The notes under the pieces are model-generated. The model worked only from the letters and a program-made list of their open reading frames with translations, ran no database searches and was not told where the DNA came from. Below, one piece after another: positions 16,452-21,454 of a DNA stretch of 64,000 nucleotides. Numbering within the stretch: position 1 is the first letter of the stretch; every line of letters begins with the position of its first letter. The position numbers and the translations under genes were made by a program. Origin of the DNA: a bacterium. Lineage in GTDB: Bacteria > Armatimonadota > UBA5829. The stretch spans positions 1-64,000 of the forward strand of contig JAJFVF010000009.1 in the NCBI GenBank assembly GCA_021371935.1, in the 5' to 3' direction.

Positions 16452-16526
16452 GCGCATTATTCACGAGAAACGTGAATGATGCGCAGCCCGGACCCGAAAT
16501 ATGCTCGACGAGCATAATTCGGGTTA
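16452..16526. repeat. Double-hairpin dispersed repeat, copy 3
   Basis: Hairpin 1 has arms GCGCATTATTCACG (16452-16465) and CGTGAATGATGCGC (16471-16484) with loop AGAAA. Hairpin 2 has arms CCCGAAATATGCT (16493-16505) and AGCATAATTCGGG (16511-16523). As in copy 2, the element ends exactly at the stop codon (TAA, 16524-16526) of a minus-strand gene. Several stem positions differ from copies 1 and 2 on both arms together. Confidence 0.85.
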
Positions 16527-16859
16527 GGATTTTTCTTCCCAACTCGGAATACCCTCGGATTTACTCGGTGTGCCACCTGCTTGAGTGCCGCCAGCCGGGA
16601 CACCGCCGGTCACTTTGGTTCCTGTGATGCCGCCGGTTGCGGATATCTCGTCTCCACTCTCGTAAAGGTCCTCTTCATCGATATCGAATTCCAATCCAAT
16701 GAATCCTCGCCTGTGGGTCTTCTCAACATCCTCTTCACTGGTAAGTCCATAAGTGCCATGTCTCGTTCGTCCCTTTTCGGGTGTTTCACCTGCCGGTGTG
16801 CCGATTTGGGCACGTTCCTGCGCTGGGGTCCTGCCTTCCATATCGCGTTCATCTGTCAT
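16524..16859 (-). CDS. Small acidic, Gly/Thr-rich hypothetical protein
   Basis: A 111-residue protein that is probably largely disordered: charged at the N-terminus (MTDERDMEGRTPAQERA), a short conserved-looking core RRGFIGLEFDIDEEDLYES, then a Gly/Thr/Pro-rich tail with repeated GG-T steps. No signal peptide or membrane segment, and no family recognised. An upstream in-frame ATG exists at 16895, but AAAGGGGTG lies before the ATG at 16859. The gene ends directly at a double-hairpin repeat. Confidence 0.6.
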   Translation of the reverse strand: MTDERDMEGRTPAQERAQIGTPAGETPEKGRTRHGTYGLTSEEDVEKTHRRGFIGLEFDIDEEDLYESGDEISATGGITGTKVTGGVPAGGTQAGGTPSKSEGIPSWEEKS

Positions 16860-16967
16860 AGCCAACACCCCTTTCAGGAAAGATAATGAATCCATATTGT
16901 CTTTACCCTTCAGGCATGAGAAATATGTGAGCCGGACATCATTGACTTATGGACTGACGGCGGGATG

Positions 16968-18599
16968 CTAATATTTACTCTGTTGATTACTACCTGATTG
17001 ACCCCAGAAAAGATGAACATTTCCAGGCTGCTGTTGTGCATCATCCTTTGGCGCTACGTAAACCCTGCCCTTTTCGGGAGTGGCTGTTATGGTTACGACA
17101 AAATCGACTTTGCCGATGTCGAGATTGATTGATCCTGCAGCTATGTTGTAGGGCTTGCCGACATCAACTGAAGCTGCCAGATTAAAAGACTTTGTCAATT
17201 GATTCTCTGGATGTTTATCAAATGGAAAAGAAAAACGTCCTTGACCCGATAAACCAATTGTGCCGTCTGCATTCATTGATGGTACAATTGCTGCCTGCAG
17301 TAGATTGATCACTGCATAATTAAGGGTTTCTTTCTTTTCAACCGGCTTGTTGGCCGATGTCGTATAGCCCACAGATGCTTCAAGATTCAACGCTATAGGT
17401 GTCTGCTCGGCTCCCACACTCTCAGTGCTTGTATCATAGACTTTAGGACCTTGTTCAGTAGCAACAGTAATCTTTGCCGCCAGCTTAAGCCGGACAGGTC
17501 TGGGCAGCGCGTTTTCCGTATCCAGCGCGCGTATAACATCCTCTGCAGATGCGATGTCATCTTCTGTTCCCCGAAGGATGATCCTGTTGCCGCTTGTAGC
17601 TGTTACAGTCAGTGGAATGATTGAGCGTGACTTTATAAACGGTGCAATGTCTCCCGCATTTACATACTTTAGGTCAATTACTTCAGTGGCCGTACCAGCG
17701 GTCATACCCGGCATCATATCCAGCCTTGCACCGGCATTAAAGCCACTTGACGCATTAAGCGCATCAGGTGTAACAGCACAACCCATCGCACCATTAAACA
17801 TCTGTTGTGGTTTTGCAGAAATCAGATAGATACCGTTATCTATTCTGTAGACAAGCCCGGCTGTCTTGCAGACCGATTTGAGTGCAACTTCGAGAGGTGC
17901 ATTTTTCAGCACGGCTGTTACGCTAAGCGCATCCAAACCCTGATCCATAGTGTAGCTGATTCCTGAATTCTCAAAAATCGTATGCAGAACATCAGAAAGA
18001 GGCATGTTTTTTGCCTCGATATTTATTACTTTATCGAGCGAGTCTATCCAAATGCGTTTATCAGCGAATTTAGCCTTGGATGGTCTTAATATTTCCACCA
18101 AAGCCCGACGAAAAGGAACGTCTGTGGCTGAGTATGTCACCTTCACGCCTGAAACGCTCTTGTCGATGCTCCATCCGCTCTCACCAGCCTTTTGGAAAAG
18201 AGTATTCAAAGCCTCTTCAATAGGAGTGTCTTTGAAATCAACACTGACGGATTTGCCCAAGCGCGCAGGGTCGACAGTTATGATAACAACTCCGTTATCC
18301 TCTCTGTAAGTAAGCCCTGCTGTCTTTATCAAGGCATCTAGCGCAGTGCGTAAGCGCATATCACGGATGCTGAATGATTGGATATATCCGTCTACAATCG
18401 AATCGACTGCATAATTTATTCCTGTGCCACTAAAGAGTGCATCAAGAGCTTTTCGCGTCGATACATCTTTCAAATCAATTGTAATAGGTGTTTGCCATGG
18501 ATCAGTTTTTTGCTTTTCCTCGGCGCCACATATTGCACAAGAAGTAAGCACAGCCAATACAACCAGCAAAACACTCAATAGGCGTATATATTTCATCAT
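16968..18599 (-). CDS. Lipoprotein with three STN-like repeats and a secretin-N-like domain, no secretin barrel
   Basis: A 543-residue exported protein. The signal sequence ends in LTSC at residues 18-21, a plausible lipobox. Three repeats of the STN/secretin short domain follow at roughly 37-112, 117-185 and 190-265, each with the pattern ISxDFKDxPLxxALxxLF...YxxxNGVxxI. Residues about 305-365 (VIDLKYVNAGDIAPFI, NRIILRGTEDDI) resemble the secretin N1 domain. The C-terminal 170 residues form an unassigned beta-rich domain; the conserved secretin pore domain is absent. It follows an anti-sigma gene by 19 bases, suggesting an envelope sensor or partner of that system. Confidence 0.75.
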   Translation of the reverse strand: MMKYIRLLSVLLVVLAVLTSCAICGAEEKQKTDPWQTPITIDLKDVSTRKALDALFSGTGINYAVDSIVDGYIQSFSIRDMRLRTALDALIKTAGLTYREDNGVVIITVDPARLGKSVSVDFKDTPIEEALNTLFQKAGESGWSIDKSVSGVKVTYSATDVPFRRALVEILRPSKAKFADKRIWIDSLDKVINIEAKNMPLSDVLHTIFENSGISYTMDQGLDALSVTAVLKNAPLEVALKSVCKTAGLVYRIDNGIYLISAKPQQMFNGAMGCAVTPDALNASSGFNAGARLDMMPGMTAGTATEVIDLKYVNAGDIAPFIKSRSIIPLTVTATSGNRIILRGTEDDIASAEDVIRALDTENALPRPVRLKLAAKITVATEQGPKVYDTSTESVGAEQTPIALNLEASVGYTTSANKPVEKKETLNYAVINLLQAAIVPSMNADGTIGLSGQGRFSFPFDKHPENQLTKSFNLAASVDVGKPYNIAAGSINLDIGKVDFVVTITATPEKGRVYVAPKDDAQQQPGNVHLFWGQSGSNQQSKY

Positions 18600-18618
18600 G
18601 ACAATTTCTCCTTATCGG

Positions 18619-19299
18619 TTAATCACCGGACTCGACGTCCACGTATACCATCACCATATTTCCAGACCGCAACCCCGAGCACTGCGTGATGTTACCGGTG
18701 GCAGGGTCACGTTCGGTGGTGCTGTAACTGTAATTATCATCAGGCACTTCATTGGTTACTGCCACAATCGTGACCGGCGCTTCAACAATTGGTTCGATGG
18801 CAGGTTGGGGCTGCTTTGGTTCGTCCTTATCCACACTTGCTTGAAGCTTACTTGACGAAGGCTTACGGTCAATAATCGGCAGCCTTTTCTTCGGGATGCT
18901 GTATTTTTTCCTGGGCTCGACTCTATGTGGAACACCAGGAGATTTGTAATGAACACCGGGTTCTTTTGGCTGTTCCTGCTTTACAGTCTCCACGTCGACT
19001 TTAGGACGCGGAGCAACAATCGAGTTGGCAGGCTCGGCTGCTTTTGGCAGCCTGGGAGCCATGGCAATCTCGCTTTCTGGCGGCACCGGCTTGTTCATAA
19101 TAAACAAAACGAGGACCAGCGCAGCAACAGGAATCAACCCGAATGCATAAAACCACACAGATCTGCTCTTGGACGGTCGGCGCACGATTTTTGCCATTAC
19201 AGCCTGCCTGCAGTCAGGCGCCGGAGGAACATAGTCCGTGCTTTTCAAAAGCTCATGCACCTCAGCGTCATCATCAATGTTGAAATGTCCACACTTCAT
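18619..19299 (-). CDS. Anti-sigma factor-like membrane protein
   Basis: A 226-residue protein starting at the ATG at 19299. This overlaps the TGA of the sigma gene as ATGA, with GGAGGA ahead, so the longer frame from 19359 is not used. Residues about 1-45 are cytoplasmic and helical (AEVHELLKSTDYVPP, DCRQAVMAKIV). One membrane segment lies at about 50-68 (FYAFGLIPVAALVLVLFIM). The remaining 150 residues are Pro/Lys/Glu-rich and probably periplasmic, ending in a small Thr/Ser domain. The canonical zinc HxxxCxxC motif is not present. Position and topology are those of an ECF anti-sigma factor. Confidence 0.75.
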   Translation of the reverse strand: MKCGHFNIDDDAEVHELLKSTDYVPPAPDCRQAVMAKIVRRPSKSRSVWFYAFGLIPVAALVLVLFIMNKPVPPESEIAMAPRLPKAAEPANSIVAPRPKVDVETVKQEQPKEPGVHYKSPGVPHRVEPRKKYSIPKKRLPIIDRKPSSSKLQASVDKDEPKQPQPAIEPIVEAPVTIVAVTNEVPDDNYSYSTTERDPATGNITQCSGLRSGNMVMVYVDVESGD

Positions 19300-19844
19300 T
19301 GGTCTTCCTCCTTCAGACAGGCTTCCAGCTTGTCTCGAAGCAGTTTTCTTGCTTTGCAACAGCGCACTCTCGCGCTTCCAACTGAGCAGCCGAGTATCCT
19401 TGCAATCTCTTCAAAAGGTCTCTCTTCAATCTCCCGCAGCACAATAACTGCCATGTAATTTGCCGGTAACTGCGCCATGGCATTCCTTACCACCATAGCG
19501 GTCGCCACTCGGTCCGCACATGTGTACGTCCGAATGTCGACAGAACACTCGATCAAGTCATCATCAAACGACACAAGGTCCGGCTTGATGCGTCTCTTTT
19601 TCGATAGACACAAATTTACTGTGATCCTGTGCAGCCAGGTTGAAAACCCGGCCTCGCCGCGAAATTTATGCAAAAACCTCCATGCCCTGACAAATGTCTC
19701 CTGCTGAACATCCGCGGCATCTTCCATATTACACAAAATCCTGTATGCCAGGGCAAACACCCTATCCTGATGAAGAGACATCAGGCGGTCGAATGCCCCG
19801 ACATCGCCTGCCCGCGCCTGCTCAACCAAGTCTGTTTCCGACAT
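19296..19844 (-). CDS. ECF-type RNA polymerase sigma factor
   Basis: A sigma-70 family factor of about 182 residues. Region 2 spans roughly residues 3-75 (LVEQARAGDVGAFDRLM, DVQQETFVRAWRFLHKFRG) and region 4 roughly 115-170 (LPANYMAVIVLREIEERPFEEIA, CSVGSARVRCCKARKLLR). No region 1 or 3 is present, as usual for ECF factors. The frame is open to a GTG at 19931 with two further possible starts at 19889 and 19844; none has an ideal ribosome site, and the domain begins right after the one at 19844. It is translationally coupled to the anti-sigma gene. The target regulon is unknown. Confidence 0.9.
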   Translation of the reverse strand: MSETDLVEQARAGDVGAFDRLMSLHQDRVFALAYRILCNMEDAADVQQETFVRAWRFLHKFRGEAGFSTWLHRITVNLCLSKKRRIKPDLVSFDDDLIECSVDIRTYTCADRVATAMVVRNAMAQLPANYMAVIVLREIEERPFEEIARILGCSVGSARVRCCKARKLLRDKLEACLKEEDQ

Positions 19845-20047
19845 AGACAATAAGAATACCCTCGGCTTCTCTTCTATTTCCTTAGACATCTGCCACGCGG
19901 AAAATGTTAACATACACGATTTGTCTTTCACGTTTAATAAGGGCGTTCCTTCGTTTTAGCGCAATAAATGGAACATAGCTGAGCAGAATAAGCGTCTCAT
20001 ATAAACATAGGAAATGTGATGGTGGTTTTGTCCGAAAGGAGTATGTT

Positions 20048-21037
20048 ATGAAAACAAAAAATGGACTAACTATGCTTGTAATGGCTGCAACACTGATAAC
20101 AGCAGCCGCAAGTCCTGCTATTACGGCTACGCTTGGGACAAAAGTTATCAAAGGTGCCGCAATTGGTTTTGCCGTCACCAAAGCAGCAGGGCCGCTCGAT
20201 AAATTCATAAATACCGTGACGTTCCGCCACGGAATGAAAAGTAAGCTCGCCACAAAAGTGGTGCCGATTCTCAGCGTTGGTGAAAAGGGCTATATCGGGG
20301 GAGCGCAAGTAAGCGGCCCTAAGGCCAAGGTGGACAGCGTAAAAGCAGTATTTCAGTATGAGAAAAATTTGAGCAACAATAACTATCGTGCAAAAGTGCT
20401 GCTGCCAAGCGCCAGTCTGAACCCGGTTAAACTTAACCGCGTTGCCGGTGTGGGTGTCACGGCAATAATAGATGTTGCTCTTGATGGACGGCTGAAATAT
20501 AACACTGTCGGCACCGGCATCCAGGCTGGTGATGTAATCAGGGGAGCCGCTGTGCTGGTGGCCGTAAAAAATGCGGGGTCGACCATCAATAAGGCACTCA
20601 ATACAATTACGTTCAATAAAGGTTCTGTGACAAAGGTTGTCCCGATGGGCAGCGTCGGTGAAAAGGCGTATTTGGGGGCGGCGCAAATCTCGGCATCGAG
20701 CAAAGTCATCGGTTCGGTAAATGCGCTCTGGCAATATGAAGACCTTTTCAGCGGCGGCAAATTCAGGGTTAAGATACTTGTCCCGACAACCTCTTCAAAC
20801 CCATTGAAAATGAAGCGAGTTGACGGAGCAGGTGTTACGGCTGTTGTCGACATGGCACTCTCAGAACAAAAAGATGTCACATCAAAAAATAACTCACGTC
20901 CGACCGTAAAAGAGATATTGAAATCACGTGTCACCAACAGTGAAAAAACCAACAATGACAATGGCAAGCACAAGGGCTGGTATAAAGGCGAGCCGAACGG
21001 TCCCAAGCCTTTTGTCGACGGCGACAAAAATAAATAG
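20048..21037 (+). CDS. Secreted protein with two long internal repeats, unknown function
   Basis: A 329-residue exported protein with a signal peptide (about residues 1-27, ending SPAITA). Two homologous repeats of about 115 residues span roughly 29-146 and 155-272. Each contains a GAA-V/G-AVTKA helix, a NT-I/V-TF strand, the VP-x-x-SVGEK-x-Y-x-GxAQ motif, a WQYE/FQYE segment, and a VxGVGVTAxxDxAL end. The tail is hydrophilic with a GWYKGEPNGPKP patch. No family recognised. AAAGGAG precedes the ATG. It is divergent from the ECF sigma operon and may be one of its targets, which is inference. Confidence 0.7.
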   Translation: MKTKNGLTMLVMAATLITAAASPAITATLGTKVIKGAAIGFAVTKAAGPLDKFINTVTFRHGMKSKLATKVVPILSVGEKGYIGGAQVSGPKAKVDSVKAVFQYEKNLSNNNYRAKVLLPSASLNPVKLNRVAGVGVTAIIDVALDGRLKYNTVGTGIQAGDVIRGAAVLVAVKNAGSTINKALNTITFNKGSVTKVVPMGSVGEKAYLGAAQISASSKVIGSVNALWQYEDLFSGGKFRVKILVPTTSSNPLKMKRVDGAGVTAVVDMALSEQKDVTSKNNSRPTVKEILKSRVTNSEKTNNDNGKHKGWYKGEPNGPKPFVDGDKNK

Positions 21038-21115: not shown

Positions 21116-21454
21116 ATGAAAAAAGTATTTGTTTGTATTTGTGCGCTAGCTCTGCTTAGTGTGTCACTGTTACCAACACTTGCAGCCACAAAAAAACCTG
21201 CGCCAAAGAAGGCAGTGCCGGCTAAAACAGCCGTAGCCGCAAAATGCGTAAAGCCTGCGGCACCAGCCAGAGTTGCAAAACCGGTATGTAAGATGATAAA
21301 AGTAAAGAAAGCTCCGGTAAAGGCACTCAAGCCTGCGAAACCTGCAAAGAAGGTCATGAAGTCTGCTGCCAAGCCTATCAAGCGGACACCAAAAGCTATA
21401 AAGCCGGTAGCCAAGCCTGCAAAAAAAGCAGTTAAGGCGTCAAAAACAAAGTAG
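21116..21454 (+). CDS. Secreted Lys/Ala/Pro-rich small protein (histone H1-tail-like composition)
   Basis: A 112-residue protein with a clear signal peptide (MKKVFVCICALALLSVSLLPTLAA). The mature part is about 85 residues of almost only Lys, Ala, Pro and Val in KPA/KPV/PAKKA repeats, with two cysteines (about residues 44 and 58). The composition resembles bacterial histone-like or H1-type tails, but the signal sequence points outside the cytoplasm. There it could bind polyanionic polysaccharide or peptidoglycan. It lies 78 bases after the two-repeat secreted protein, on the same strand, and is closed by a strong terminator. ATGGAGG lies ahead of the ATG. Confidence 0.7.
   Translation: MKKVFVCICALALLSVSLLPTLAATKKPAPKKAVPAKTAVAAKCVKPAAPARVAKPVCKMIKVKKAPVKALKPAKPAKKVMKSAAKPIKRTPKAIKPVAKPAKKAVKASKTK

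Follow-up and report, generated by a model that had tools for sequence, protein, structure and literature searches.

The operon described here lies on the minus strand of a 64,000-nucleotide stretch of DNA from a bacterium of the phylum Armatimonadota (the window) and consists of three genes. An ECF sigma factor gene (19296-19844, start codon ATG at 19844) is followed by a gene for a membrane anti-sigma factor (18619-19299), which was delineated from alignment, an AlphaFold2 (AF2) model and a class-wide search, and by a gene for a miniature secretin-like protein of 543 aa (16968-18599), which was characterized by Pfam, alignments, the AF2 model and fold comparison. The sigma and anti-sigma genes overlap as ATGA (sigma end 19296, anti-sigma start 19299), and only 19 bases separate the end of the anti-sigma gene at 18619 from the start of the third open reading frame at 18599, so the coordinates confirmed the tight linkage of three minus-strand genes reported in the first-pass annotation. 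The sigma protein contains regions 2 and 4 only (Pfam Sigma70_r2, 63 bits; Sigma70_r4_2, 49 bits) and scored 85 bits with TIGR02937, above the NCBIfam cut-off; judged from these profiles, it is an ECF sigma factor. An ECF-type promoter is predicted upstream of the sigma gene, also on the minus strand (19881-19911, GTTAACATTT-N14-GTCTAAG), and the same element was found before the sigma gene in relatives.

Several other open reading frames surround the operon. An acidic 123-aa frame lies downstream (16524-16895, minus strand) and a Lys/Ala/Pro-rich secreted 112-aa frame lies nearby (21116-21454, plus strand), both without Pfam families of note. The product of the divergent gene at 20048-21037 (plus strand) is secreted, contains two repeats and matches nothing in Pfam; its homologues were present in 26 of the 28 class genomes, many of them interrupted by a stop codon in the match. 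We rejected this gene as a fourth member of the operon: despite its presence in 26/28 genomes, it adjoins the operon only in the window's genome (G000), its congener G003, and G004, which was also counted as a congener.

The third protein begins with a signal peptide, followed by STN1 (residues 38-109), a degenerate STN2 (117-188), STN3 (191-262), an N1 domain (303-359) and a C-terminal beta-domain (366-512). In Pfam, the STN profile matched five stretches (98 bits) and Secretin_N covered residues 305-361, and the N-terminal part matched PilQ and GspD chains by sequence with an E-value of 1e-10. By sequence, N0(STN) and N1 periplasmic domains thus precede the beta-domain, as in secretins. The three STN-like repeats and N1-like domain of the first-pass annotation are present in the window protein, with the second repeat degenerate in the AF2 model, but STN multiplication does not characterize the family as a whole: alignments and Pfam gave one STN in G001, G004, G010, G018 and G022, two in G005 and G017, and three in the window protein, G003 and G016. 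All members share the final STN, N1 and the C-terminal domain. The lipobox fared similarly, with LTSC occurring in the window protein and in none of the eight aligned relatives or the G003 copy; we therefore rejected lipidation as a family trait, and the lipobox of the window protein might tether it to a membrane in this one species. No TonB receptor plug or barrel was detected on the STN protein by Pfam, in agreement with the annotation, and neither Pfam nor NCBIfam found a MucB/RseB domain in it.

To the sequence profiles the protein has no secretin barrel, as first noted, since PF00263 (Secretin) gave no match up to an E-value of 1 in the window protein or in seven relatives searched to the same threshold, and PDB sequence matches to secretins end at the N1 domain. 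The predicted fold contradicts this. An AF2 model built from a nine-sequence alignment (mean pLDDT 69, pTM 0.41) gave a C-terminal domain of eight strands (368-381, 384-397, 402-408, 431-442, 448-459, 467-478, 484-493 and 496-508), with pLDDT of 73-92 in this block outside a disordered loop at about 410-430. Secretins ranked first for the whole model in Foldseek (E 1e-14). In VIA-align, residues 302-511 (N1 plus beta-domain) matched MxiD with a Z-score of 14.0 over 194 residues at 3.7 A, and residues 366-512 alone matched RcpA with a Z-score of 12.9 over 128 residues at 3.6 A. A profile-profile comparison with Armatimonadota PilQ gave a weak but collinear beta-domain match (E 0.003), against 0.04-0.78 for five reversed or permuted controls. 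According to the model, the last ~145 residues have the secretin beta-domain fold in reduced form, a stripped domain encoded at 17064-17504 (minus strand) and delimited by AF2, VIA-align and a loop motif scan. The protein had been read as an STN array freed from any pore; what the model depicts is the full order N0(STN)-N1-beta-domain with the membrane-contact insertions gone, that is, a miniature secretin with one to three STN domains, N1 and a stripped secretin sheet.

In secretins the strands are four outer and four inner ones, and contact with the outer membrane is made by the beta-lip, located between outer strands, and the adjacent amphipathic helical loop (PMC8563730, PMC6532946). In the model, strands 1-2 and strands 7-8 are each joined by a two-residue turn, and the corresponding hairpins span 25-35 and 24-30 residues in 9/9 proteins. 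The beta-domain measures 123-158 residues in these proteins versus 224 in PilQ of the window's genome, and the amphipathic helical loop motif P-x-L-G-D-x-P-x-x-G-x-L-F occurred in none of the nine versus 14 of 16 Armatimonadota secretins. Taking strand order and the PilQ profile alignment as guides to which strand pair corresponds to the lip and which to the loop, we infer that both elements are reduced to tight turns in all nine modelled or aligned proteins, so the third protein most likely stays periplasmic and does not form an outer-membrane pore.

The product of the second gene has one predicted membrane helix, as expected of the membrane anti-sigma factor first annotated, followed by a long Pro/Lys-rich linker and a conserved C-terminal tail of ~35-45 residues with the consensus Y-x-Y...D-x-x-T-G-E-x-T...R-S-G-D-x-V-x-I-x-x-E-S. 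AF2 predicted this tail, at modest confidence, as three strands after a disordered linker. No Pfam family matched the anti-sigma protein above its cut-off, FecR and FecR_C included, a fold search returned nothing below an E-value of 0.6, and no relative was found in a search of viral contigs. An H-x3-C-x2-C zinc-finger motif is present in the G005, G010, G016, G017, G018 and G022 copies and in paralogues, and is absent from the window genus, which on this comparison appears to have lost the zinc-binding motif of its relatives; the zf-HC2 profile reached only an E-value of 0.05. Paralogous sigma/anti-sigma pairs with the same tail were seen at G004:C9 and G003:C288 (L180 3510-6355, L181 1832-4654), each with a third gene of 470-478 aa in which no STN was apparent by eye. 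The tail is therefore conserved also in pairs without a visible STN partner and does not have to be a ligand of the miniature secretin; this is chiefly why we remain cautious about docking between the two.

Neighbourhoods were read with profiles for all three proteins. Among the 291 genomes surveyed across the phylum Armatimonadota, the third protein's C-terminal domain was found in only ten (E<=1e-8), and 10/10 of these have the sigma and anti-sigma genes immediately before it on the same strand. Such linkage, kept across four families of the class, argues against chance. Loss of linkage in relatives had been named beforehand as grounds against the envelope-sensing proposal; as linkage is kept across the class, that objection falls. 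In G003 the operon is split by the assembly: the promoter and the start of the sigma gene end contig C169, the anti-sigma and third genes open contig C219, and the two contigs presumably adjoin. Extra copies of the C-terminal domain occur in G018 (C347) and, as a weak match, in G005 (C67); ORF tables contained no sigma or anti-sigma gene beside either, and each of the two genomes carries a linked copy as well. Genes that flank or follow the miniature-secretin genes of G005 (L133 4883-10730, L044 9586-11559) encode large secreted proteins (657-763 aa), and the two that were scanned had no Pfam match. Other STN proteins are encoded next to sigma/anti-sigma pairs in G020, G023, G015 and a second locus of G004. 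From these gene neighbourhoods, the sigma/anti-sigma/STN layout appears to recur, with the family carrying the secretin-like domain as one branch.

The element GTTAAC-N17/18-GTCTAA precedes the sigma gene in G000, G001, G004 and G010, with changes in G003, so that five of the ten sigma genes share it; a sixth (G016) has a looser version, and it was not recognized before the sigma genes of G005, G017, G018 and G022. Genome-wide counts of the pattern do not exceed those of the reversed control; for this reason we give weight only to matches preceding sigma genes. Such a shared ECF-type promoter points to autoregulation of the sigma operon. The exact pattern has two sites in the window's genome, the second of which lies 33 bases before a gene for a secreted S41-family peptidase (G000:C7:132558-134564; L127 8556-10565). 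We rejected the S41 protease as a conserved sigma target, as relatives lack either the gene or the motif; at most, it may be a species-level target of the same sigma factor.

Several known systems resemble parts of this operon. In the rpoE-rseA-rseB operon, the order is sigma, anti-sigma and periplasmic protein. The RpoE-RseA-RseB system shares with our operon the succession of sigma, membrane anti-sigma and periplasmic partner, as well as the proposed control of anti-sigma proteolysis, but the partner here is secretin-derived and lacks the RseB/MucB domain. Cell-surface signalling (CSS) systems such as FecIRA, FoxIRA and PupIRA likewise place an STN domain beside an ECF sigma/anti-sigma pair whose anti-sigma has one membrane helix; here, in contrast, there is no TonB-dependent receptor, and no FecR-type periplasmic beta-solenoid plus STN in the anti-sigma. 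The third protein would thus be RseB-like in gene position and CSS-like in domain. With secretins (PilQ, GspD, pIV, RcpA) it shares the domain order STN(N0)-N1-beta-domain and the predicted fold, differing in a beta-domain of ~145 versus ~224 residues and in the absence of the lip, the amphipathic helical loop, a PF00263 match and a secretion or pilus operon. The closest precedent is PUMA3 of Pseudomonas aeruginosa (VreA-VreI-VreR), which likewise combines an ECF sigma, a membrane anti-sigma and a periplasmic barrel-less STN protein, VreA, the putative receptor (PMC2729926). VreA is described as one STN plus a TolA/TonB-like C-terminal domain, and this description sets it apart from the N1 and stripped secretin domain found here; VreR, moreover, seems to be a separate transcription unit, while the Armatimonadota anti-sigma family is of zinc-finger type with a short tail. 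Given VreA, STN receptors without a barrel are already known from ECF signalling. Of the different envelope-sensing design suggested in the first-pass annotation, the ECF sigma/anti-sigma pair in one operon with a non-TonB STN protein, no secretin by sequence, therefore holds, but it is not unprecedented (PMC2729926). A literature search that covered few subscription papers found no paper on a secretin-derived anti-sigma partner.

Considering these results, we propose a model in which the three genes form an ECF sigma module that activates itself and the third gene product is the periplasmic partner of the membrane anti-sigma. The anti-sigma would span the inner membrane once, keeping the sigma factor in the cytoplasm, and its flexible Pro/Lys-rich linker would carry the short conserved beta tail outward. 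The tail might dock on the miniature secretin through an STN or the beta-domain, as inner-membrane partners do on secretin N0, and an envelope signal, acting in whichever direction, might alter this contact and open the anti-sigma to stepwise proteolysis. The freed sigma factor would then transcribe its own operon from the GTTAAC-N18-GTCTAA promoter. In CSS, the receptor meets the anti-sigma on its periplasmic side through an STN-STN contact and, without a signal, protects it from proteolysis (PMC11637429). This known contact, the gene order shared with rpoE-rseA-rseB and the M50 (site-2-type) proteases present in the window's genome, as in nearly all genomes, led us to take the miniature secretin as the partner of the anti-sigma. 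We put the probability that it controls anti-sigma proteolysis and sigma release in this way at roughly 50%. Somewhat more tentatively, these proteins may be signalling secretins, in which the scaffold without its membrane-inserting parts serves as a periplasmic receptor gating an ECF anti-sigma, perhaps as a ring bundling several tails.

The third gene could also be a target of the sigma factor and not a sensor, and operon order alone is compatible with either. On such a reading, the miniature secretin would be a product of the sigma factor that acts as a periplasmic part or assembly helper of a true secretin, with the anti-sigma sensing something else. The first-pass annotation had anticipated this with its proviso about a pilQ or gspD gene elsewhere for which the protein is an accessory; PilQ and two other true secretins are indeed encoded elsewhere in the window's genome, pilMNO-type genes beside pilQ, but what ties them to the operon's protein is remote homology only. 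A free STN protein already accompanies pilQ in this genome, which speaks for a helper: a short protein with a Gly/Ser-rich tail and no secretin domain is encoded between the pilMNO-type genes and pilQ (G000:C6; L039 7488-8219 and 5731-7434), and relatives encode comparable proteins of STN plus Gly-rich type, either next to pilQ or on their own. However, the linked copies adjoin sigma/anti-sigma genes and not secretin genes (in G017, pilQ is ~2.9 kb away on the other strand), and many class genomes have pilQ and no such operon. We consider a helper role rather unlikely and place the periplasmic partner of the anti-sigma ahead of it.

Self-piloting lipidated secretins exist, and with its lipobox the window protein might still assemble into a ring or small pore in the outer membrane, with the lipid anchor as one possible means, and signal or transport as a minimal secretin. 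The eight strands retained in the model, four plus four, would fit such a pore, but the relatives do not share the lipobox and all nine proteins lack the beta-lip and the amphipathic helical loop (PMC6532946), which makes this improbable. The varying STN number (one to three) and the degenerate repeat of the window protein would suit a secretin paralogue that has decayed and been caught in the operon without a signalling role; yet the open frame and the conserved C-terminal domain persist in species only ~25-35% identical, and linkage is complete in all ten genomes, so that decay seems very improbable.

Secretins are known as large pores, and if a miniature secretin does serve as the periplasmic partner of the anti-sigma, a pore scaffold would have been turned into a sensor. 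The operon would then offer a concrete test case for STN signal transfer without a TonB receptor. Furthermore, operons of sigma, anti-sigma and STN protein may be a recurring signalling layout in the poorly studied Armatimonadota.
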